Below are positions 4,158 to 26,174 of a stretch of 29,565 bases of DNA, one piece after another; position 1 is the first letter of the stretch; each line of letters opens with the position of its first letter. The translations under genes and the position numbers were made by a program. The stretch is from IMG/VR virus record IMGVR_UViG_3300044470_000131, positions 1 through 29,565 of that record. One strand, given 5' to 3'. Origin of the DNA: a virus. The notes under the pieces were generated by a model. That model was not told where the DNA came from, made no database searches, and worked only from the letters and a program-made list of their open reading frames with translations.

Positions 4158-6311
4158 CTATTGAATGGCGATGGACGCGAGCGAAATTGACTGAATGGAT
4201 TGACCATCGACATAATACAGCGTGCAGGGGGGCGATCCGCGGTTGGCTCGCACGGTTGCATTGGCCGGCTTGATAAGCAGGTACCATCCCTGCGCCATGA
4301 GGATCGTATCGATGTTGAACCCCGCATCCGCATTGACGATGGCGATCTCGCTCGACGAAAGCGGGACACCTGAGCTGTACATGCCGAAGTTCAGGCCTTG
4401 CTGAATGACGTCCGTCACCGACTGCTCCAGCATTGCGTAACCACGCATGTTGTAGGGGAAGGACTTCACCTGCGTCATGAAGTCGAGGATCGCGAGCTGG
4501 AGAGCGTTGTTGAGCCAGATCTGATTGATGTAGCTGTCCGCCCACTTAAACGGCCCACTGATGGTGCCGCGCTGGTAGTCCACAAAGCGTTGGTTGGCCG
4601 TCGAGTAGGCGCCATAGAAGTTGTAGCCATTGCCGAAGCTGCCCTCAACCTGCGGATTGCCCGCGAGGTTGTGGGCGACGGCGGACGTAGTGACAGCGGG
4701 CGTCAGCCCAGACTGCCCTTTGAACGCGAGGGTCGCCCGCCCGTTGGTCTCGTTAAAGTCGATGCTTGCCACCGCGCCGCAGAAGAACCAAGCGTGGTAG
4801 AGATCGCTCGGCTCATAGATCAGCACCGTACCGGAGCTGTCGTTCTGCTGGAGCAAGTAACCCATGGATGTGGTCGCCGGCAGAGTGGTGGTCGGGCTGG
4901 CGTCGGTGTCCCAGCAAACATAAGCATAACGGTCGGTCTGATCATTCACCCAAGCGGCAAAAAGCTGCTTGTTGGCATTACCCGAACTGTCCGGGTTGAA
5001 CATGGTCATGAACGTGGCCCAGTCCTGCGTGACCCCGACGATGCCATCCATGAAGGCGTAAGGCGATGCCGCACCCGCTCCCTGACTCGTCACCGCGCCC
5101 GTTGCCTGCGAAAGGAACAGGGGGGCAGCCGCGGTGCCGGACGCATACCCGATCGTTGAATTCGCTCCTGTGGTTCCGGACTGGAGGAGGAAAGCCCCAG
5201 AGACGCTGTCATAACTGACCGCCACATCAGCGCCAACAACTGCGATGGTGGGTGTGCTGACCGCCGTATCGCCAATGCTGCAGAGGTACGTTCCGGTGTT
5301 TCCGGTTCCCGTCAGGAACGCGGTGATCGTGTTGTTGGCGGAGACGCCCGTTCCGGTGAACACGTCGCCGATGCCGAAGGACCCTGCTGCAACCACCGTC
5401 ACGTTGAGCGTGCCGCCGTTCGCGGTAATCGGAGTAGCTGGAGCAACGGTCTGGCTGATGCTGACGGCATACTTGCCAGTGCCGCCCGTTCCGGTGATGG
5501 CCGCCGTGATCTCGGTTCCCGACGCGGCGCCACCAGTCAAGGTCTGGCCAACCACGAGCGTGCCTGTGGTGACCGCGCTGACGTTCAAGCAGCCACCGCT
5601 GCCGGTGATCGTGGTGCTGCCAACGATCTGACTGACGGACACCTGATAGGTTCCGTTCCCGCCCAACGGGCTTCCGGTCAATTGACTAACGATAGTCGTG
5701 CCGGGGACAACGCCGATGCCGCTGACCGACTGGCCTGCGGCGAAGGCACCAGTGGTGATGCCCGAGATCGTCAGGGTCGTGTCGTTGATCGAACCTGTTC
5801 CGACGTTTGGGTCGATCCGACCGACTACGACGTTTGCGGCGACCGATCCGGTGGCCGAGGTCGCTGTGTTCAATGCGGCCTCGATCAGGGAGGCAGCAGC
5901 AGATGGGCTGGGCACTGCGCCAAGGTTCACAGGACCGCTCTGCTCCGAACCATCCACCGTGACGGATAACGTGCCGTTGATGGCCTGCAGTTCGGCCAGC
6001 GTGAGGCCAGCAGCACTCCCACCGCGTAGCCACGCGGCAACGGCAGTCGCCGGGTACTGGGCAAACAAGATGAGGCCAGGCTTGACGTTCGAGTTGTCAA
6101 AGCCGTTGAAGTAGATCGCCGCCCCGGCAGCTTCCGCTGAGGACGGTCCAAAGTAGTTCGCAACATCGCTCTTCCCTAGCGAAACGACGGAGCCGATGGG
6201 GACCCGCGCATTCTTGGTTAGGATGAGGCCGACGAGGTCGAGGGCGCCAGGGGCAGTTCCCAAGACACCCGGAATAACTTGAACGAGATCACTTGCCGGA
6301 ATGGTCGTCAT
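4158..6311 (-). CDS. Contractile tail sheath protein (DUF3383-like) with three inserted beta modules
   Basis: 717 residues; ATG at 6311 after AGGAGAAAAAGC. The N-terminus (IPASDLVQVIPGVLGTAPGA), the 'VGLILTKN' strand and the C-terminal half (TQDWATFMTMF, QLFAAWVNDQTDRYAYVCWD, NQIWLNNALQLAILDFM) are typical of DUF3383 sheath proteins. Between residues about 176 and 358 lie three tandem copies of a roughly 60-residue Gly/Thr-rich module with the pattern LTVxxVxxGTxxVGQxLTG...GTxI...LTGTGGTGTYxVSxSQ. They interrupt the DUF3383 strand that resumes at ADVAVSYDSVSGAFLLQSG. The same module is found in the cement and tail-terminator proteins. The sheath encloses the tube and contracts at infection; the modules are probably exposed on the tail surface. 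Confidence 0.88.
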   Translation of the reverse strand: MTTIPASDLVQVIPGVLGTAPGALDLVGLILTKNARVPIGSVVSLGKSDVANYFGPSSAEAAGAAIYFNGFDNSNVKPGLILFAQYPATAVAAWLRGGSAAGLTLAELQAINGTLSVTVDGSEQSGPVNLGAVPSPSAAASLIEAALNTATSATGSVAANVVVGRIDPNVGTGSINDTTLTISGITTGAFAAGQSVSGIGVVPGTTIVSQLTGSPLGGNGTYQVSVSQIVGSTTITGSGGCLNVSAVTTGTLVVGQTLTGGAASGTEITAAITGTGGTGKYAVSISQTVAPATPITANGGTLNVTVVAAGSFGIGDVFTGTGVSANNTITAFLTGTGNTGTYLCSIGDTAVSTPTIAVVGADVAVSYDSVSGAFLLQSGTTGANSTIGYASGTAAAPLFLSQATGAVTSQGAGAASPYAFMDGIVGVTQDWATFMTMFNPDSSGNANKQLFAAWVNDQTDRYAYVCWDTDASPTTTLPATTSMGYLLQQNDSSGTVLIYEPSDLYHAWFFCGAVASIDFNETNGRATLAFKGQSGLTPAVTTSAVAHNLAGNPQVEGSFGNGYNFYGAYSTANQRFVDYQRGTISGPFKWADSYINQIWLNNALQLAILDFMTQVKSFPYNMRGYAMLEQSVTDVIQQGLNFGMYSSGVPLSSSEIAIVNADAGFNIDTILMAQGWYLLIKPANATVRANRGSPPCTLYYVDGQSIQSISLASIAIQ

Positions 6312-14752: not shown

Positions 14753-15994
14753 ATGTCTTCTGATCCCATGAACTGCGGCGTCTATACGATCACCGCACCC
14801 TCCGGAAACCAATATGTTGGCAGTTCGTGCAACATCGCTAGTCGGTGGCGGCGTCATCGAAAAGAAATGAAAGACGGGACGCACAACAACCCGATACTCT
14901 TGAATGCCTATCGAAAATACGGCAATGCGCTACGCTTCGACATCTTCATAGTATGCGGAAAAGCCGACTTGGTGACGTATGAACAAATCGCCATTGATGA
15001 TTTGAAGCCGCGTTACAACATCTCGCCAACTGCCGGCAGTGTTCTCGGCATTCGCTACCCAAAAGAAGTCTATGCAAGCCGAGCTGCGGCGGCAAAACTA
15101 CGTATAGTTTCCGCTGAAACACGCCGCCTAATTAGCTTGGCGACCACTGGGCTTAAACAAACGCAAGCTTCCTGCGACAAGAAAGGGGCATCCCTTCGAA
15201 AAACAATGGCAACGCCGGAAGTCAAAGCGCGGATGATCGCAGCGGCACACCGACGTGCAGAAAATATAGAAACCCGCGCTAAAATATCCAACGCGCTTAA
15301 AGGACGAAAGAAACCGCCAAGGACCGCCGAGCACATTGAAAAGATTGCCGCATCAAAACGCGGCACTAAAGCTTCCCCGGAGACTCTTGCTAAAATGCGT
15401 GCAGCGCATAAAGGGTGGAAGCCATCCGCAGAAACCTTGGAACGACATCGTATTGCAATGCAATCGCCCGAAGTGCGCGCCAAACTTAGGGCGGCAGCAA
15501 AAGGAAAAACAATTTCCGCAGAAACCCGTGCAAAGATATCTGCCGCGCAGCGCGGGCAAACGCGCGCACCTCTATCTAAGGAACATCGCGCCAAGATTAG
15601 TGCAGGAAATAAAGGAAAACGCGTGTCTGAAGAAACACGGGCGAAACTACGTGCGGCGCGCATAGCGCTTATGGCTAATCCAGAAGCGTCTAAAGCGCTT
15701 CGGAAGAAAATCAGCGCGGCAAACAGTGGAAAGCATCATTCTGCAGAAACGCGCGCAAAGCTTAGCGCCTTAAATAGGGGCAAACACCATACCGCCGAAG
15801 CCTGCGAGAAAATTCGCGCGGCTGGTATCGGACGACGCCACTCAGAAGAATCTATTGCAAAGATGTGCGTGGTTCAACGATTACGAAGGGCAAGAATGGC
15901 GTCCTCAACAGCATGCCAATCGGCGGCAAGCGGATCAGAGTCTGCAACAGAGACGCTCGGCCCGCATCTTCCTTCTGGAACAAGCGCCACGTGA
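14753..15994 (+). CDS. GIY-YIG homing endonuclease with many NUMOD3-type repeats
   Basis: 413 residues; ATG at 14753 with AAGGTG seven bases upstream. The nuclease domain is complete: GVYTI (Y11), QYVGSS (Y21), R31, catalytic Glu in TYEQ (E77) and [10 protein letters not shown] (N89). From about residue 115 on there are eight or more NUMOD3-like units of the type [15 protein letters not shown], the DNA-binding modules of homing enzymes; most such enzymes have far fewer. The gene is opposite to all neighbours and A-richer. Its last roughly 40 codons run antisense into the DUF2213 gene ([16 protein letters not shown] is out-of-frame phage sequence), so the natural end has probably been lost or extended on insertion. 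It would cleave a cognate site and promote its own spread. Confidence 0.92.
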
Positions 15995-18219: not shown

Positions 18220-19798
18220 CTAATGCCCCCTGCTCCGGGGCTTCACCCCCTGGCTCATCAACCTTCTCGGTTTCCGTTTCCCGCATGTGTTCCGGTTCGG
18301 GTGCTTCTGGTTCGGGCACATCTTCCACATCGATGGACCGATATGGCGCATCCGGATCATCGGCCAACCGGCGGCGCGATTCAATTGGTGCGAGAACACC
18401 ATGATCGATCAAAATGCCGTCCGTTTCAGCTTCAACTTTCTTCAGGTTGCCCTTCTGAATGTCATCAAGTTCACTCAGCGACTTGAAGGCATACGTCAAA
18501 TCCGGATCGACCTTGCCCCACAAATTAATCTGCGCCAGCTTAAAAACGGTCGTCAAATGCGGCCCGAAAAAATACTCCTGATAAGCATGTTCCCTTGCCT
18601 CCCAAACTTTCAGCTCCCCCTCCGACGAAGCATTGAGCCCCTTTGGCTGAATGCCGAACAGCTTGACCAGCGGGGTCTGCGCCGGGGTCGCCATGTGCTC
18701 CTGCGCCTGCGCTTGAAGCTCGTCGAGGGTCGAAAGCGAAACCGAGACGTTGGCAAAGTCCTCATCGTTCTTCGAGATCGCCATGACGCCGCGGTTGTTG
18801 CGCGTGTTGTTGAAGTACTCGAGGCGCTCGTCCAGCTTGACCCCATCGCCCATCATCAGCGCAGCCATGTCGGTCTTGAGCACCATGGTCGAGAACGCCT
18901 GGACCAGGTCGTTGACCGACTGGCGAGTGCGCAGCCAATTCTCGATGTAGGGCTTAGCCATCTGCGACAGCGACAGACCACCGAACGAAAATGCCGGCTT
19001 GAAAAGGTCGCTCACTGGGCGCCCAACAAACGTCAACAAGCGCGTGCGATGGATCTCCTTCCCCATCACGAACCAAGTGTCGGGGCGGTACCAGTTGTCC
19101 TTCAACGGATCAGCTGCGTCATAGTGTGCCGGGTAGCACCACACCGGCTCGATTGATCGCAGCGCCTCGATCTTACCTTTGCCCAGCTTATTGATGCTGA
19201 ACTCGTCGCCCTCGCCAATGGGCTTCTTAAGCTCATTCGGATCGTCGGTATCACCGGTGTCGATGTAAACGTGCGAGCGCCCGAAGTAACCGTCCTGCTC
19301 GCTCGCCAACTTGAAGATGGCGCGGGCATCGAGGCGATCAAGTTCCTCTTCCAGTTCCTTGATCTTGTCCGACTTGGCGTTGCCCGAACCGCCTGCCTTC
19401 TTGTCGGCTTCGTCGTCGGTCGATTGAATCTCGATCCAGTTCCGCGTTGCCTCTTCCGCAATAGTGGCGCTCAGCAACCTGTATTCTGAAATCAACGATA
19501 GCTGCGCCAGGTACGGATAACCAAGGAACGTCCAGCCCTCGATGTAGACCAGATTGAAGAAGCTCTCCGCAACCCAGCCGCTGAACGAAGCAGGCATCTC
19601 GTCCATCGCGAGGCGCGTGCCCTTGGGCACCACGCCCGGAGGTGGCTTCGCAGGCTTCAAATGCTCGGGCCAATCGTCAATCCGTGGCCCCGTCAATTTC
19701 TCGCGCGGCGGCCCACCAGTCAAAGCGCCATTCCAGCTAAACCGTTTATTCACGGCCTTTTTGACGCGCTTCTTTTGTGGCACAGCCTTGCGCTTCAA
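18203..19798 (-). CDS. Portal protein (DUF1073-like)
   Basis: I place the start at the TTG at 19798, where GGGAGG lies five bases upstream and TTGA overlaps the terminase stop. This gives 531 residues (LKRKAVPQKKRVKKAVNKRF onward, the first residue being Met in vivo); the further upstream reading is terminase sequence out of frame. DUF1073 features: SFFNLVYIEGWTFLGYPYLA, the 'EYRLLSATIAEEATRNW' region, GKEIHRTRLLTFVGRPVSD, NNTRNNRGVMAISKNDEDF, PLVKLFGIQPKGLNASSEGE, and an acidic tail with GILIDHGVLAPIESRRRLAD. It forms the dodecameric ring at the packaging vertex. Confidence 0.9.
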   Translation of the reverse strand: MKRKAVPQKKRVKKAVNKRFSWNGALTGGPPREKLTGPRIDDWPEHLKPAKPPPGVVPKGTRLAMDEMPASFSGWVAESFFNLVYIEGWTFLGYPYLAQLSLISEYRLLSATIAEEATRNWIEIQSTDDEADKKAGGSGNAKSDKIKELEEELDRLDARAIFKLASEQDGYFGRSHVYIDTGDTDDPNELKKPIGEGDEFSINKLGKGKIEALRSIEPVWCYPAHYDAADPLKDNWYRPDTWFVMGKEIHRTRLLTFVGRPVSDLFKPAFSFGGLSLSQMAKPYIENWLRTRQSVNDLVQAFSTMVLKTDMAALMMGDGVKLDERLEYFNNTRNNRGVMAISKNDEDFANVSVSLSTLDELQAQAQEHMATPAQTPLVKLFGIQPKGLNASSEGELKVWEAREHAYQEYFFGPHLTTVFKLAQINLWGKVDPDLTYAFKSLSELDDIQKGNLKKVEAETDGILIDHGVLAPIESRRRLADDPDAPYRSIDVEDVPEPEAPEPEHMRETETEKVDEPGGEAPEQGALGAAKK

Positions 19799-21045
19799 CG
19801 ACGCCTCCCAAGGACGCGCGAGCGCGCCAGCGCTTCGGGGCTGATGGTCAGGGGGGCACGGCGAGCACCCTCCACGGAATAACGAAGCGCGTCGATGACG
19901 TGGTTCTCCTTGTCCTCGAGAATCGGCAGAATCTCTTCGGTCTTCTTGTCCTGCTTCCAACTGTAAAACGACAGCTCGTCAATCGTGTGCGTGCAACGGG
20001 GATGAACCACGATGTCGTACGACTTCAAAAATTCGATACCGTCCTCGACGGAACCTGGCCCCTTGAGCGCCGGTATGACGTTCGGATAGCCGTTGCGCTG
20101 CATGAACGAAATGGTCTCCGGACGCGCGCTGTCCGCGCGTATCTTCCATTTCTTCGACTGCGGTATTTTGTCGAACAGCTTCGGCGTATGATCGATCTCG
20201 CAGCCAACCTGATACACTTCTTGATCGACGTAAAGCGTTCGTCCATCGATAAAGCACCTGACCAAAACGGTGGGGTCAACGGAGAAGCCCCAATCGGCGC
20301 CGAAGTAAAACCGGACGTTTGCCGGTGTTTCGAATTCACGCTCTTCCCAGTTGTGAAACACGCGGGCCTCCGAACGCCGCTCGTATTTCCCACACCAGAT
20401 GTGCGCGTACTTGTCCGGATCGCGCTTGCGGTCGCGCTCCATGTCGCGGCGAAGATCTTCCGGGAACCATGGGTTGTCCGGGTAATTCACCTCGACGCAA
20501 AGAAAATCTGGGTCATCAGCGTTGTCGGAAAAGAGTTTGTCGACCGGATCCGTCGCCTTATTCGGATTCCAGGAAAACCAAAGCTCGGCACCAGGAACGC
20601 GAAACGTCGGAGTCAAAAGGTCCAAGGACCGAATGCTGATCGACTGGGCCTCTTCCACCCAAGCTATCCGATAACCTTCCAACGACTTGATCGATTCCGC
20701 GGTGTGGTTCTGCATGCCCTGAAACGAAATCAAACCGGCGCGCCGGCCGATCGTGTCTATGACCCATATCTCGGAATCCAGAACCTCGAAATGCGCGCCA
20801 ACCTCCATCGACCTTATTTTATCTTCGATGAGTTGCTTCGCCGATAGGTCGAGCGACTTCAAAGTTTCACGAATACAAACCGCGCGCGTATTCGGATCGG
20901 CCACGCATTCCTCAACCAACAGCTCGGCGAAGAAAAATGATTTCCCTCCGCCCCTTCCGCCATGCGCGCCCTTGTAGCGCGCGGACTTCAGCAACGGAAG
21001 AAATTTCCTAGCGGTCGGTATCCGAAGAGTTTGAAGCTGGGTCAA
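19795..21045 (-). CDS. Terminase large subunit
   Basis: 416 residues; the start is a TTG at 21045, inside the small-subunit gene (38-base overlap). ATPase: Walker A GGRGGGKS (29-36), Walker B YRIAWVEEAQ (E131/E132), coupling motif WFSWNPN. RuvC-like nuclease: FGADWGFS (D251), RADSARPET (D305), HVIDALRYS (D385). The length is at the short end but all motifs are present. It resembles the PBSX/Terminase_3 type. It translocates and cuts DNA into the prohead through the portal encoded next to it. Confidence 0.95.
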   Translation of the reverse strand: MTQLQTLRIPTARKFLPLLKSARYKGAHGGRGGGKSFFFAELLVEECVADPNTRAVCIRETLKSLDLSAKQLIEDKIRSMEVGAHFEVLDSEIWVIDTIGRRAGLISFQGMQNHTAESIKSLEGYRIAWVEEAQSISIRSLDLLTPTFRVPGAELWFSWNPNKATDPVDKLFSDNADDPDFLCVEVNYPDNPWFPEDLRRDMERDRKRDPDKYAHIWCGKYERRSEARVFHNWEEREFETPANVRFYFGADWGFSVDPTVLVRCFIDGRTLYVDQEVYQVGCEIDHTPKLFDKIPQSKKWKIRADSARPETISFMQRNGYPNVIPALKGPGSVEDGIEFLKSYDIVVHPRCTHTIDELSFYSWKQDKKTEEILPILEDKENHVIDALRYSVEGARRAPLTISPEALARSRVLGRRR

Positions 21046-21523
21046 CGACCACCCGCTCTATCCGTTGAATGGAGATGGGACCACCATCGGGTCCCGATAA
21101 TTCGCGCTTGTCAACCATCCCAAGATCACGCGCAATGATGCTTGCATTCAGCAGTTCAGCGGAAGCTCCTTCGAACTTTTGGGTGCGGATAGCCGCCTCA
21201 ACTTGAGTGGTGATTGCTAAAAAATCGGTCTGCTGTCGATAGTTCTGCCACGTTTGCCGCGCAACCCCCAAAAAGAGGCATAGCCCATCAAGTGACATCG
21301 CGCGCAGTTTAGGAAAGTTCTCTTTGGCAACCTTCCCTCGAAATGCAAAACCACGAACCTCTTGCAGCGGGTTTGCTTTCACCCACTCAAAATACTCAAC
21401 GCACGCACCCCACAGCTCCTGAGCATCCTTGAAGATCGGATTACGCCCGTGCGAACTTCTTGCCTGCCAAAATTGATTGCCAGGTTGAAACGTCGTATCT
21501 CTTTTTGGTACTTTCGACGCCAT
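21008..21523 (-). CDS. Terminase small subunit
   Basis: 171 residues from the ATG at 21523 (TGATG overlap with the NusG-like gene). Features: GNQFWQARSSHGRNPIFKDA at the N-terminus ('GNxFWxxRxxxGR' as in DNA-packaging gp3-like proteins), RAMSLDGLCLFLGVARQTWQ (helix-turn-helix), IRTQKFEGASAELLNASIIA, ARDLGMVDK and DGGPIS. This domain order and the neighbouring large subunit identify the DNA-recognition subunit that selects the pac/cos site. The C-terminus probably contacts the large subunit. Confidence 0.9.
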   Translation of the reverse strand: MASKVPKRDTTFQPGNQFWQARSSHGRNPIFKDAQELWGACVEYFEWVKANPLQEVRGFAFRGKVAKENFPKLRAMSLDGLCLFLGVARQTWQNYRQQTDFLAITTQVEAAIRTQKFEGASAELLNASIIARDLGMVDKRELSGPDGGPISIQRIERVVVDPASNSSDTDR

Positions 21524-22131
21524 CACAAAGCGCCCCGCGCATCGGAGTTTTCCTTCGCTCCGCGTCGACGCCCGAACTGTGGCGCCATGGTCGACGTTCT
21601 TGTTGTTATCCGGCCAGCATTGATCGCTCCCTCGCCGGGAACGACCTGATGCGCCGGGATAGGTACGCTTAATTCGCGGCCAAGTAAAGCCAGCAGCACA
21701 TAGAGGCACCCCTTCCGATAAAACTGAAACTTCCCCTCATGCTCGGCAAACGGACCACTCCGAACAAAAACCAACGCACCTGGCGCATAGCCCCGAACCA
21801 CATCCTCAACCGTCCACTCATCGTACTCACCACCCTCTACCCGCCCACGAAGCTCAGCGACAAAGCCTCGCGGCAAGGGGGAGGGCCGCTCAAGGTGCGA
21901 CGGCAAAAGCCGAACGACGCCTCGCGTTCCATTGACGGCCTGCCACCTATCAGGCCCAGAAAGATCAAGCGTTACAAAGAGATACCCTGGAAAAATGGGC
22001 TGCTTATCACGCCCGAAACGGCGTTTTATGGCGATGGCAGGAACATAACAATCAAACCCTTGGCGCCGCAAATTGAGGTCGGCGACCGCCTCCGCACCGG
22101 GGTGCGTCTGCGCCACGTACTCGCGATCCAT
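21523..22131 (-). CDS. NusG/RfaH-like transcription elongation factor, first gene of late operon
   Basis: 202 residues from the ATG at 22131; a TTG two codons earlier is less likely because AGGG fits the ATG. An NGN domain covers about 3-80: EYVAQTHPGAEAVADLNLRR, FDCYVPAIAIKRR, IFPGYLFVTLDL, VNGTRGVVRLL. A KOW-type domain follows at about 114-165 (YAPGALVFVRSGPFAEHEGK and VLLALLGRELSVPIPA). Family members bind RNA polymerase and suppress pausing or Rho/intrinsic termination. Directly upstream of its ribosome site is an intrinsic terminator and a structured leader, so autoregulation or control of the more than 20-kb late operon by antitermination is likely. The last about 25 residues are a basic tail. 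Confidence 0.9.
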   Translation of the reverse strand: MDREYVAQTHPGAEAVADLNLRRQGFDCYVPAIAIKRRFGRDKQPIFPGYLFVTLDLSGPDRWQAVNGTRGVVRLLPSHLERPSPLPRGFVAELRGRVEGGEYDEWTVEDVVRGYAPGALVFVRSGPFAEHEGKFQFYRKGCLYVLLALLGRELSVPIPAHQVVPGEGAINAGRITTRTSTMAPQFGRRRGAKENSDARGAL

Positions 22132-22142
22132 GCGCAAACCCT

Positions 22143-22178
22143 AAAAAAGCCCGGCCCCCTTATAAGCCGACGCCGGGC
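22143..22178 (-). terminator. Intrinsic terminator/attenuator in leader of NusG-like gene
   Basis: On the minus strand GCCCGGC (22178-22172) pairs exactly with GCCGGGC (22155-22149) and is followed at once by six T (22148-22143), then AGGG and the start codon at 22131. The T-run fixes the orientation as leftward. It lies upstream of, not after, the gene, so it can act as an attenuator. Confidence 0.85.
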
Positions 22179-22187
22179 AAATGCTAG

Positions 22188-22420
22188 GGGGTCGCGCCTG
22201 ACCCCGCCGCGAGCCACGACCACCGACCAAAAGCCCCACCGCGCCACAGCCCCTACGGCGGCCCGCTACGCCAGCCCACCGCCAGGCGGCTACGCCCGCC
22301 CGCCCGACACCCTAACCGCCCGCGTAGCCCCCGCCGCAAGCCCGCAAAGGCCGCGTTGGCAGGGGGGCGACCCCCTCCAACCCCCGCCGCAAGCCCCAAA
22401 CCACCAAAAACCCGCCTTTT
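22188..22420 (-). promoter_or_regulatory. G-rich, hairpin-rich untranslated leader of the late operon
   Basis: This 230-base stretch has no convincing ORF and is strongly C-rich on plus, hence G-rich in the leftward transcript. It holds GGGGTC/GACCCC arms (22188-22205), AGGGGG/CCCCCT arms with a four-base loop (22361-22376), and a 16-base direct repeat CCCCCGCCGCAAGCCC at 22328-22343 and 22381-22396. Several GGCGTAGC-like inverted units lie between. It could be an RNA structure acting in antitermination or a pac-like region. Confidence 0.55.
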
Positions 22421-22428
22421 CCGCCCTT

Positions 22429-22444
22429 ATTAGCAACTGCTAAT
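22429..22444. promoter_or_regulatory. Palindrome ATTAGCA-AC-TGCTAAT, candidate operator
   Basis: Perfect 7-base arms with a two-base spacer, at the border between the G-rich leader and the AT-rich promoter region. A half-site-like 'gattag' recurs about 15 bases to the right. The size suits a dimeric repressor or activator for late transcription. Confidence 0.5.
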
Positions 22445-22517
22445 ATCCCACGCAGCCGATTAGTATTTTAATGCCTATATCTTGCGGTCAGGAGGGTCTA
22501 CCCCCATATTTCACTAC

Positions 22518-22533
22518 CCCCTATATATAGGGG
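22518..22533. promoter_or_regulatory. Palindrome CCCCTATATATAGGGG with second imperfect copy at 22604-22617
   Basis: A perfect 16-bp palindrome. A near copy, CCCCTATATAAGGG, lies at 22604-22617, just downstream of the rightward promoter. Two similar sites flanking a promoter suggest a cooperative operator. Confidence 0.5.
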
Positions 22534-22567
22534 CGATATATTTGTTATGTATAGCTTTATTTTTCTT

Positions 22568-22596
22568 TTGCTTATTATTTTCCTATACCGTATAAA
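22568..22596 (+). promoter_or_regulatory. Sigma70-type promoter for the rightward gene at 22670
   Basis: TTGCTT (22568-22573), 17-base spacer, TATAAA (22591-22596) within an AT-rich stretch. Transcription would start near 22603, overlapping the second CCCCTATATA element, giving a leader of about 65 bases before the ATG at 22670 (AAAGGAACGCC ribosome site). Confidence 0.65.
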
Positions 22597-22669
22597 TATA
22601 TTCCCCCTATATAAGGGAGCCGAAGTTTACCCTACGTAAGGCTGCCACCTAGTACCCGAAAGGAACGCC

Positions 22670-23634: not shown

Positions 23635-23669
23635 GGGCGTCGAGCGGTGGTTGAAACACCGTGACGCCC
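23635..23669 (+). repeat. Left-end hairpin of TnpB element
   Basis: GGGCGTC (23635-23641) pairs with GACGCCC (23663-23669), and inside GGTG (23646-23649) pairs with CACC (23657-23660) around GTTGAAA. Such a 'GGTTGAAACACC' stem directly upstream is typical of the left end of IS1341-type elements. Confidence 0.7.
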
Positions 23670-23698
23670 TAACCAGGTGGCCGTATGGAACGGCACAG

Positions 23699-24868
23699 AT
23701 GGCTGACGAAGAATTACCCCAAGTCTTTCGCACGTACAAGTATCGTTTGTTTCCGACGAAACGGCAGCACGCGGCCTTGGCGGATATTCTGGAAAGCCAG
23801 CGCCAGCTTTACAATGCTGCTCTTGAAAGCCGTATAGACTATTACCGGAAAATCGGTAAGAGCTTATCATATATGACGCAGACTTCTCAGCTTGCGGAAT
23901 GCCGACGCGATATACCGGAAATGGCGGTGATTCCCTCCAATTTACAGCGCGCCACTCTTAAGCGTCTTGATCGCGCCTTTGATGGCTTTTTCCGGCGTGT
24001 AAAACATGGCGACAAGGCAGGTTTTCCCCGCTTTAAGGGCCGAGACTGGTTTACATCGTTTGGATTTGTGGAATTCAGCGGTATTCGGCTGGTTTCTAAG
24101 AGGCTAAAATTCAAAGGGCTTCCGGGCTTTTTGCGGGTGCATTTGCACCGGCAATTACCGAAGGATCGCAAGATATGTAGATGTACGTTCAAGAAAGATG
24201 CGCGCGGCTGGACAGTCTCGTTTCAGGTCAAGATGGCAGTGGAACTACTCCCCGCATCAAACATTTCCGTAGGGATAGACTGCGGCATTACTGATCTGGC
24301 GGTTTTGTCTAACGGCGAGCATGTGCCGAATCCGCGTATAGCGAAGCGTCATGAGCGTGAATTGCGCCGTCATCAACGTGCTCTATCACGTTGCAAGAAA
24401 GGCTCTGGCGGTCGCCGAAAGGCGCGTGCAAAGGTCGCTAGGCTGCACGTCCATATCTCCAATACTCGCAGCACCTATCTGCACCAAGTTTCTCGGAAGA
24501 TCGTCAATTCCTATGGCGCGATTGCCGTCGAAAAGCTCAATGTGAAGGGTTTAGCTAGCAGTGTGCTGGCGAAATCCGTTCATGATGTCGCTTGGGGTAA
24601 ATTCCTGTTTATGCTTTCGTACAAGGCTTTGAGTGCCGGTCGAGAGTTCAAGGAAGTTGATCCCCGTTACACTTCGCAGATTTGTTCTGGCTGTGGCGTT
24701 ATCGTCAAAAAGAAGTTATCTGAGCGTGTTCATAATTGCCCGGAATGTGGGCTTGTCATGGACCGCGACGAAAACGCTGCTCTAAACATTCTGCGCCGGG
24801 CTGTAGTGAGTCCGGGTGCGCTTCAACGCCGGGAGTCACTGGCGTGCGCACAGAAATTACAGGGTTAA
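23699..24868 (+). CDS. tnpB: TnpB RNA-guided nuclease
   Basis: 389 residues from the ATG at 23699 (MADEELPQVFRTYKYRLFPT); the in-frame TTG upstream lies within the left-end hairpin. RuvC motifs: I, SVGIDCGITDLAVLS (D194); II, AIAVEKLNVKGLA (E278); III, DRDENAALNI (D357). A zinc finger of two Cys pairs, CSGCG and CPECG (about 329-350), lies between II and III. The N-terminal wedge/REC part starts YKYRLFPTKRQ and contains FPRFKGR. All three catalytic acids are present, so it is probably an active nuclease. TnpB uses an omega-RNA from the element's right end as guide and favours retention of the element. It has no TnpA partner in this window. Confidence 0.95.
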   Translation: MADEELPQVFRTYKYRLFPTKRQHAALADILESQRQLYNAALESRIDYYRKIGKSLSYMTQTSQLAECRRDIPEMAVIPSNLQRATLKRLDRAFDGFFRRVKHGDKAGFPRFKGRDWFTSFGFVEFSGIRLVSKRLKFKGLPGFLRVHLHRQLPKDRKICRCTFKKDARGWTVSFQVKMAVELLPASNISVGIDCGITDLAVLSNGEHVPNPRIAKRHERELRRHQRALSRCKKGSGGRRKARAKVARLHVHISNTRSTYLHQVSRKIVNSYGAIAVEKLNVKGLASSVLAKSVHDVAWGKFLFMLSYKALSAGREFKEVDPRYTSQICSGCGVIVKKKLSERVHNCPECGLVMDRDENAALNILRRAVVSPGALQRRESLACAQKLQG

Positions 24869-24909: not shown

Positions 24910-25068
24910 TCAGGTCGCGCACCTTGGCACGCATCGCTCGGGAACTATAAGTGCGGCACTCATCACGATGGCGACTACAACGTCACACCAAAACATGAAG
25001 CCATGATCGATGGTTGCGAAAAGAACCATCATAATCAGTGCTGCGACGTAGAATGCGTTCCACCACAT
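24910..25068 (-). CDS. 52-residue membrane protein
   Basis: The ATG at 25068 is preceded by GAGGAGGG, a strong ribosome site that touches the upstream stop. The product begins MWWNAFYVAALIMMVLFATI and continues with a second hydrophobic stretch VVVAIVMSAALIV, so it likely spans the membrane twice. The end (VPERCVPRCAT) lies at the right edge of the TnpB element, so the original C-terminus may have been replaced. Last gene of the methyltransferase operon. Function unknown. Confidence 0.6.
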   Translation of the reverse strand: MWWNAFYVAALIMMVLFATIDHGFMFWCDVVVAIVMSAALIVPERCVPRCAT

Positions 25069-25080
25069 CGGCTACCCTCC

Positions 25081-25251
25081 TCAAATGTATTTGTTTGGGT
25101 TAGTACACTGGATCATGGTTCCAAGATATTTCCCGCAATGCCACCAGTAGCCATCATGCCAAAACGTATCGAGATCGAGATCGCAGAAAACGCAGCCGCA
25201 GCTATTCTCAATCTTGGGGGTGAATAGCCATTCACGAATTTTCTTGAGCAT
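25081..25251 (-). CDS. 56-residue Cys-rich protein, possible zinc binder
   Basis: ATG at 25251, AGAGG six bases upstream. It begins MLKKIREWLFTPKIENSCGC, then VFCDLDLDTFWHDGYWWHCG and ends MIQCTNPNKYI. Cysteines at 18, 20, 23, 39 and 49 with His near 32 and 38 could bind a metal. It lies between an 87-residue ORF and the membrane ORF with short gaps. No family recognised. Confidence 0.6.
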   Translation of the reverse strand: MLKKIREWLFTPKIENSCGCVFCDLDLDTFWHDGYWWHCGKYLGTMIQCTNPNKYI

Positions 25252-25261
25252 GGTCGGCCTC

Positions 25262-25525
25262 TTATGAGTTTCCGGCTTCGGTTAAATCTATGCCGTTAAA
25301 GTGGCAGAACTTCTCAATCGCCAATACCGCCTCGTTGGCATATCTGAGGTCTTTATCTGGTAACGGGATGCTGTCGTCGCAAGCATCAACGCGCCGAAGT
25401 GCGGCGTGCGACAATTTTATGATCTTTCTTGCGGCGTGAACATTTCCCTTTTCTTGCTCAAGCCTTAGCTTCAGCACGTCAATCTCGTTCATCAGTTCTT
25501 CATACGTGTCCACGTTGGGCCTCAT
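25262..25525 (-). CDS. Small helical protein downstream of methyltransferase
   Basis: 87 residues; its ATG directly follows the methyltransferase stop (TAGATG). It begins MRPNVDTYEELMNEIDVLKL, a clear coiled coil continuing RLEQEKGNVHAARKIIK, then RYANEAVLAIEKFCHFNGID. Soluble, acidic, without motif. Its tight spacing puts it in the leftward operon. Confidence 0.65.
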   Translation of the reverse strand: MRPNVDTYEELMNEIDVLKLRLEQEKGNVHAARKIIKLSHAALRRVDACDDSIPLPDKDLRYANEAVLAIEKFCHFNGIDLTEAGNS

Positions 25526-26119
25526 CTATACGTTTAGCGCAACGGGGTTTTGCGCTTGATTTCCCCATGAGTCCCAACCCGGAGCCGCGCCACGAGAAAA
25601 CAGCTCCACCTTTGGGACTTCGCCAAAAATCGCCTCGATTCGGGAGCGGACTTCTTTGGGCTTCCGACTATGCTCGGTTCTCTCGGCAGTAACGAGTTGG
25701 CGAATGTCGCGCCGCATCCGAGTTGGCGATCCTCGTGTTCCGAGTAGACAGAGTTCGACATTGCCCATCGTCCACTGTCCGAGGTTCGCGACTTCTTTCC
25801 CCGTTGTTGTGATCTTCGACCAGCAAAAGGCAATCGTCTTGAACTTAAATCCCCACGCTTTGATGATCTGTAAGGCTTCCGGCAAAAGCGGGGACGTAGC
25901 CCACAACAGAAGTGCACAATCTGGCGCGGCGATCTCTGAAACGTGCATGGCGGCGATCTCTGAAACGTGCATGGCGGCGATCTCTGCAAGCGCCATAGTT
26001 GGGTAACGGCCAGCCTCGGGCGCGAACGATCCTTTGACGGTTCCGTCCTCTGGGCGCTTCCCAAAGCCTTTATCGCCATACGACCAAGGCGGGTCAGCAT
26101 AAATTACGCCGTATTTCAT
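25526..26119 (-). CDS. MT-A70-type N6-adenine DNA methyltransferase
   Basis: 197 residues from the ATG at 26119 (MKYGVIYADPPWSYGDKGFG), with AGAGG upstream; a GTG 18 codons earlier is possible but lies only a few bases from the -10 box. Catalytic DPPW at 9-12, LLLWATSPLLPEALQIIKAW (conserved 'LW' helix), GFKFKTIAFCWSKI, NVELCLLGTRG, RTEHSRKPKEV and KVELFSRGAAPGWDSWGN are the expected order for MT-A70 enzymes of phages. There is no restriction partner nearby, so it likely protects phage DNA or regulates genes. A 24-base tandem duplication (residues about 45-64, EIAAMHVS twice) is inserted before the ALLLW strand. Confidence 0.92.
   Translation of the reverse strand: MKYGVIYADPPWSYGDKGFGKRPEDGTVKGSFAPEAGRYPTMALAEIAAMHVSEIAAMHVSEIAAPDCALLLWATSPLLPEALQIIKAWGFKFKTIAFCWSKITTTGKEVANLGQWTMGNVELCLLGTRGSPTRMRRDIRQLVTAERTEHSRKPKEVRSRIEAIFGEVPKVELFSRGAAPGWDSWGNQAQNPVALNV
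25928..25986 (-). repeat. 24-bp tandem repeat in methyltransferase gene
   Basis: Identical units at 25928-25951 and 25952-25975, and the first 11 bases of a third at 25976-25986. They encode EIAAMHVS repeated. In frame, so the gene stays open; recent slippage is likely. Confidence 0.95.
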
Positions 26120-26174
26120 GGCTTGCGGCCTCTGTAGTTCGGCGCGGGCTGGCCGCGTCCTGATTTCGGGCACC

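Follow-up and report, generated by a model that had tools for sequence, protein, structure and literature searches.

An RfaH-like gene behind an intrinsic terminator at the head of a phage late operon: a candidate late-gene antiterminator

The viral DNA analysed here (the window; 29,565 bases, a virus record of IMG/VR) carries a gene for an RfaH-like protein at the head of its late operon, overlapping the terminase genes and lying directly behind an intrinsic terminator (Table 1). We propose that this cis-encoded, specialised NusG paralogue of the RfaH type would drive the late operon of packaging and structural genes, in the role that Q has in lambda, and that the terminator would be a gate which the protein relieves, with feedback. 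We give this proposal as a whole a probability of about 0.4, and its parts differ in strength. The protein probably is an antiterminator of the late operon, because related phages usually carry the gene near terminase and often beside an RfaH-type loading site. Relief of the terminator by the product of the gene behind it is a more tentative suggestion, since the terminator is not conserved in the relatives.

Table 1. Features around the head of the late operon (window coordinates).
Feature	Position	Strand	Basis
A/T-rich divergent region, expected late (leftward) and early (rightward) promoters	22446..22669	.	GC content, weak promoter matches
Palindrome TATTAGCAACTGCTAATA, possible late-promoter operator	22428..22445	.	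sequence; role presumed
G/T-rich presumed untranslated late-operon leader	22179..22440	-	composition; transcription presumed
Leader repeat copy 1, GGCTTGCGGCGGGG	22382..22395	-	inside exact 16-nt direct repeat
Leader repeat copy 2, GGCTTGCGGCGGGG	22329..22342	-	inside exact 16-nt direct repeat
Second GCGTAGC, inside inverted repeat	22289..22295	-	sequence
Weak ops-like variant GCGTAGC, candidate loading/pause site	22265..22271	-	top matrix match in leader, 7.2
Leader repeat copy 3, GGCTCGCGGCGGGG, 1 mismatch	22202..22215	-	sequence
GGGGTC...GACCCC hairpin	22186..22205	-	folding; 3' arm overlaps CCCCCT
Possible promoter overlapping hairpin, CTAGCA-17 nt-TATAAG, 8 of 12	22159..22187	-	weak match
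Intrinsic terminator (7-bp all-GC stem, 16-nt loop, T6)	22143..22178	-	sequence, shuffles, folding
AGGG, Shine-Dalgarno-like, between T-tract and ATG	22139..22142	-	sequence; role presumed
RfaH/NusG-like antiterminator gene, 202 aa	21523..22131	-	Pfam, PHROG, NCBIfam, AlphaFold2, Foldseek
Terminase small subunit	21008..21523	-	Pfam GP3_package 3.7e-24, phrog_606
Terminase large subunit	19795..21045	-	Pfam Terminase_3 5.9e-30

The original prediction had placed a perfect 7-bp GC hairpin followed by six T only 11 bases before a start codon, with termination directed leftward into the operon, and both statements are exact. On the minus strand the arms are GCCCGGC (left, 22178-22172) and GCCGGGC (right, 22155-22149), the six T occupy 22148-22143, and the strand then reads AGGGTTTGCGC followed by the ATG at 22131, exactly 11 nt past the last T. 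The terminator is one-sided, the T run being present on the minus-strand side alone and the rightward direction having none. Its folding energy is about -16 to -19 kcal/mol, and -17.9 for the hairpin alone. When both strands of the whole window were scanned for perfect stems (7 bp or longer, loop at most 20) followed by at least 6 T, this hairpin was the sole match in 29.5 kb, and relaxing the scan to 6 bp and five T added no further site in the window. A GC-rich stem running directly into a U-tract is beyond chance here, the expectation from 300 dinucleotide shuffles being 0.03 per window and 0.0007 for the leader strand. As judged from these features the hairpin is expected, with good confidence, to terminate transcription, and a single strong terminator at such a short distance from the gene counts in favour of the proposal.

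The product of the gene, which is read from an ATG with an alternative TTG possible at 22137, matches Pfam NusG at 3.9e-16, with the Pfam KOW model itself unmatched, and phrog_6386, described as a transcription antiterminator. The top NCBIfam model was RfaH (2.3e-19, 69.9 bits, under the cut-off of 144.5); the scores for the housekeeping-NusG model TIGR00922 (36 bits vs a cut-off of 135.7) and for the LoaP model (24.5 bits vs 125) also stayed below their cut-offs. An AlphaFold2 model based on 43 phage sequences (mean pLDDT 86) has the NGN domain followed by a KOW domain predicted as a beta-barrel, the arrangement of the NusG superfamily, and its Foldseek matches were NusG and RfaH structures. 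An autoinhibited alpha-helical C-terminal domain was not predicted, by a method that cannot exclude fold switching. Identity to RfaH is just 25%. Of the RfaH positions reported to contact ops (PMC5995543), R23, Q24, N70, T72 and R73 are kept in the alignment; K10 and H20, likewise among the contacts, are replaced by H and N, respectively, two positions that are variable in ops-bearing chromosomal homologues as well. The window protein falls, in a tree of 59 proteins, with the phage proteins L260, L261 and L004 (support 88/95, not starred) and five core NusG proteins separate on a 100/100 branch. By these sequence comparisons the protein is RfaH-like and stands outside core NusG. No close relative was found among annotated phages at E 1e-5, or among viral contigs by single-sequence patterns; distant relatives were reached by looser or alignment-based searches.

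That the NusG-like gene heads the structural genes, as had been predicted, is borne out by the Pfam match and by its surroundings, although the late block is broken by an ORF on the opposite strand. The NusG-like gene and the small terminase gene overlap, stop on start (TGATG), and terminase, portal, major head and tail sheath genes follow leftward. This coupling to terminase and the retained ops-contact positions count in favour of the proposal. The interrupting ORF, at 14753-15994 (+), has the look of a GIY-YIG/NUMOD-type homing endonuclease, judged by eye.

A position at the late operon near terminase, as for a Q-like factor, recurs among the phage relatives. In viral contigs an alignment-based scan yielded 142 relatives, of which 80 were kept, and many of these homologues lie near terminase (e.g. 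L260, L264, L265, L291, L302, L335 and L336). Sites resembling E. coli ops (GGCGGTAGCGTG; core GCGGYAGC) were counted from 150 nt before to 230 nt after the gene, with one locus for each 60%-identity cluster. The core occurs beside the gene on the sense strand in 14 of 53 clusters and on the antisense strand in none. With a weight matrix trained on chromosomal sites alone, 10/53 pass a score of 12 compared with 1.9% of random segments (p = 5e-8). In control loci lacking a NusG-like gene, GCGGYAGC was present upstream of terminase in 11 of 60, at about one-fifth of the density per base. The comparison, drawn from the sequences of dozens of contigs, supports the view that the recurrent device in phage late operons is an RfaH-type factor with a loading site, both at the terminase end, and it upholds the idea that such a factor may substitute for lambda Q or N in late-gene control.

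The conservation of the hairpin that might have been expected from comparing leaders of related phages is essentially absent. Among the 80 phage loci a comparable hairpin with a T-tract upstream of the gene was seen in one near-duplicate pair only, 281 nt away, and the pre-gene terminator therefore appears essentially private to the window. The nearest analogues of the window layout, by sequence, are L320, where a promoter-like sequence, a hairpin and ops precede the NusG-like gene, which itself overlaps the gene after it, and L228, with a hairpin and ops 14 nt before the gene; both carry ops where the window has a T-tract. The contig L004 has the same NusG-TerS-TerL order as the window, with GGCGGTAGC in the NusG-TerS gap, and a terminator scan found none upstream of its NusG-like gene. 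Upstream of that gene, at 4573-4785, a long inverted repeat with arms of about CACACGACCACGTTTTCTTT / AAAGAAAACGTGGTCGTGTG is present twice. Thus, of the attenuation circuit with positive feedback that had been predicted, the RfaH-type factor heading the late operon is retained, but the terminator is left without comparative support. The gene itself is absent from 49 of 50 related-terminase records and from 40 of 44 related-capsid records, many of them fragments in both sets, which suggests that the factor has no fixed link to a single structural module. In L225 and phi3LM21 it stands at the end of an early block.

Homologues are also found in bacterial chromosomes. A sample of 385 genomes, taken from the class to which a Beijerinckiaceae (alphaproteobacterial) genome belongs, contained 115 with a match at E <= 0.001, the weakest probably being core NusG. 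The top matches, with 35-45% identity, are chromosomal paralogues in alphaproteobacterial genomes, most often with polysaccharide-type genes as neighbours. Ten neighbouring genes of the top matches were sampled; six have sugar, polysaccharide or transport-type functions (DegT aminotransferase, asparagine synthase, GDP-mannose dehydratase, ABC transporter), and three are winged-helix genes directly before the NusG-like gene. In 16 of 34 chromosomal loci a hairpin-like sequence with its 3' arm running into the ops core lies just downstream of the gene (e.g. TTTCACCCGGACTGCGGTAGCGTGG). This conserved hairpin-like sequence and core (CACCCGGACTGCGGTAGC...) stand about 40-210 nt after RfaH-like genes beside polysaccharide-type genes, at L231, L236-L238, L240-L243, L246, L247, L250, L253, L254 and L257-L259. 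Ops-type sites, as recognised by sequence, are therefore present outside the gammaproteobacteria. A hairpin with TGCGGTAGC was also observed in the leader of an asparagine-synthase-like gene (MCGIAGF start) on the phage contig L226 (G059; 6732, minus strand), whose RfaH-like gene is located elsewhere on the contig.

The leader of the window operon had been described as G-rich and hairpin-rich. It is G-rich (48% G, with 19.5% T; GC 0.71-0.78 vs about 0.38-0.43 in the A/T-rich divergent region), but its hairpins are a property of composition, since the folding energy equals that of shuffles (MFE -152.1 vs -152.4 +/- 4.8, z 0.05). An Rfam scan gave no match. The leader contains neither GCGGYAGC nor the E. 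coli ops at up to 2 mismatches, and thus lacks the canonical site of RfaH; in the window as a whole E. coli ops has 4 matches at that tolerance, which is the chance level. The top match of the ops matrix in the leader, CTGGCGTAGCGGGCC, is weak. It is one of two occurrences of GCGTAGC, a motif picked after looking, for which two copies were seen in 0.13% of shuffles, and which stands in place of GCGGTAGC in one chromosomal locus, L237. The sequence GGCTYGCGGCGGGG occurs three times in the leader, twice within the exact 16-nt repeat, and a repeat that long was seen in 0.1% of shuffles. Either the GCGTAGC pair or the GGCTYGCGGCGGGG repeats could be a loading or pausing element. A three-way RNA switch also appears in folding, where CCCCCT can pair with AGGGGG at 22160-22155 in competition with the terminator; we do not take this competition as evidence of function, because 37% of shuffles show the like. 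In the promoter search no strong leftward promoter was found, and the matches were weak.

From this arrangement we infer that RNA polymerase would initiate in the A/T-rich region, transcribe the leader and pause there. The NusG-like protein would use its NGN domain to load on this paused complex and would remain bound, and the polymerase would then resist pausing, Rho and terminators over more than 20 kb. Late transcription would stay low until read-through of the terminator yields enough factor. There are precedents, in that specialised NusG paralogues serve long operons and some are encoded inside the operon they regulate (PMC7593976), and relief of an intrinsic leader terminator by a NusG paralogue has been proven for LoaP (PMC12691694). 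A feedback circuit of this kind has a start-up problem. Because the gene sits behind the terminator, the first protein would have to come from basal read-through, from elsewhere (a host RfaH-like paralogue, for instance) or from a promoter within the hairpin. Counting against the proposal are the unconserved terminator, the leader free of canonical ops, the changes at K10 and H20, the KOW domain predicted as beta and the weakness of the promoter matches. One may speculate, still more cautiously, that a widespread group of phages took over bacterial RfaH/ops as a late switch, in which the factor, encoded at the terminase end of the late operon, loads at a hairpin-ops element adjacent to the gene for it, and that in the window phage a diverged loading element and a terminator would give self-gated positive feedback.

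The main rival to relief of the terminator by its own product is a promoter inside the hairpin. The RfaH-like factor would drive the late operon here too, but the terminator would serve to stop leftward read-through from upstream; with the -10-like TATAAG in the loop, late transcripts would start within the stem and never form the hairpin. TATAAG agrees at 5 of 6 positions and has CTAGCA 17 nt upstream, leftward genes do lie upstream of the terminator (24910-26173), a promoter-like sequence is found very near the gene in some relatives (L335, L320), and the lack of a terminator conserved with the factor agrees with this reading. We nevertheless consider it unlikely, given that the -35 is poor (3 of 6), that other sites score equally well or better and that 260 nt of non-coding leader with its repeats would be left unexplained. 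It is improbable that the leader acts as a factor-independent attenuator, in which pairing of GGGGTC/GACCCC versus CCCCCT/AGGGGG decides the fate of the terminator under the control of ribosomes, pausing or another ligand. The probability that the terminator pairs does fall from about 1 to 0 and recover when the RNA is folded from successive 5' ends, and the outer helix is able to pair the Shine-Dalgarno-like AGGG, but shuffles behave alike in the proportion given above, the leader as a whole folds in an ordinary way without an Rfam match, and relatives with the same leader were not found.

The hairpin could also be the terminator of a former upstream unit, left by mosaic exchange as a weak barrier. 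Its restriction, together with the leader, to the window would fit such a history, as would the TnpB/IS605-type gene nearby and the place of the NusG-like gene at the close of an early block in L225 and phi3LM21; yet the hairpin is intact and precisely adjoins the Shine-Dalgarno-like sequence, and the gene is coupled to terminase, so that we find a relic quite improbable. Negative autoregulation, with the NusG-like protein strengthening pausing or termination at the hairpin and T-tract and so limiting its own operon, seems very improbable. In some bacteria NusG does enhance pausing at T-rich sites or aid weak terminators (PMC7819879), but the window protein groups with RfaH-like antiterminators and not with core NusG, and shutting off structural genes would have no obvious use.

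Compared with RfaH/ops of E. coli, the proposed system shares the NGN and KOW domains, the five conserved contact positions, a long operon and, in the relatives, GCGGYAGC beside the gene; it differs in that the factor is phage-borne, is encoded inside its own operon, has low identity and a KOW predicted as beta, and has a terminator in the leader instead of canonical ops. Its role would be that of lambda Q and N, in which a single phage factor lets transcription past an early terminator into a long operon. The lambda proteins are unrelated to the NusG-like factor, and Q is made from a different operon whereas the window factor sits inside the operon it presumably controls. The LoaP/dfn leader of Bacillus velezensis likewise combines a NusG paralogue with a leader ending in an intrinsic terminator before the first gene, but LoaP works through a UNCG-type RNA hairpin and is a NusA antagonist (PMC12691694), and its model is weak on the window protein. 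Phages of Rhizobium, Sinorhizobium and Bradyrhizobium (RHph_TM3_3_3, phi3LM21 and ppBjS10J-1) carry a NusG-like gene some distance before the terminase genes, with 23-28% identity to the window protein. In phi3LM21 it overlaps the preceding early gene, and in phi3LM21 and ppBjS10J-1 there is no sense-strand GCGGYAGC between it and terminase. No description of late control by RfaH/ops in phages was found in the open-access literature, outside which most subscription journals fall. To our knowledge, late-gene control is unknown in most phages beyond the lambda, T4 and T7 models, and for a broad set of them the comparison suggests a specific mechanism that can be tested, in which the late operon would be under RfaH-type antitermination through a DNA element recognisable by sequence. 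If true, RfaH/ops would be a module common to phages, extending beyond the regulation of bacterial capsule and virulence operons. The window offers a natural construct, with leader, terminator and factor gene within about 1 kb, open to in vitro testing.

Some further features of the upstream region may be recorded. Two copies of CCCCCTATATA(TA/A)GGG(G/A)GC, at 22517-22534 and 22603-22620, lie in the A/T-rich region within a larger imperfect inverted repeat and could be operators or part of an origin. The TnpB/OrfB IS605-type gene (23651-24868, +) separates the early genes from the late promoter region, and has at most 47% identity to TnpB-family genes on Bosea plasmids. An MT-A70 family methyltransferase gene at 25526-26173 (-) contains a short in-frame duplication (AAMHVSEIAAMHVSEIAA).
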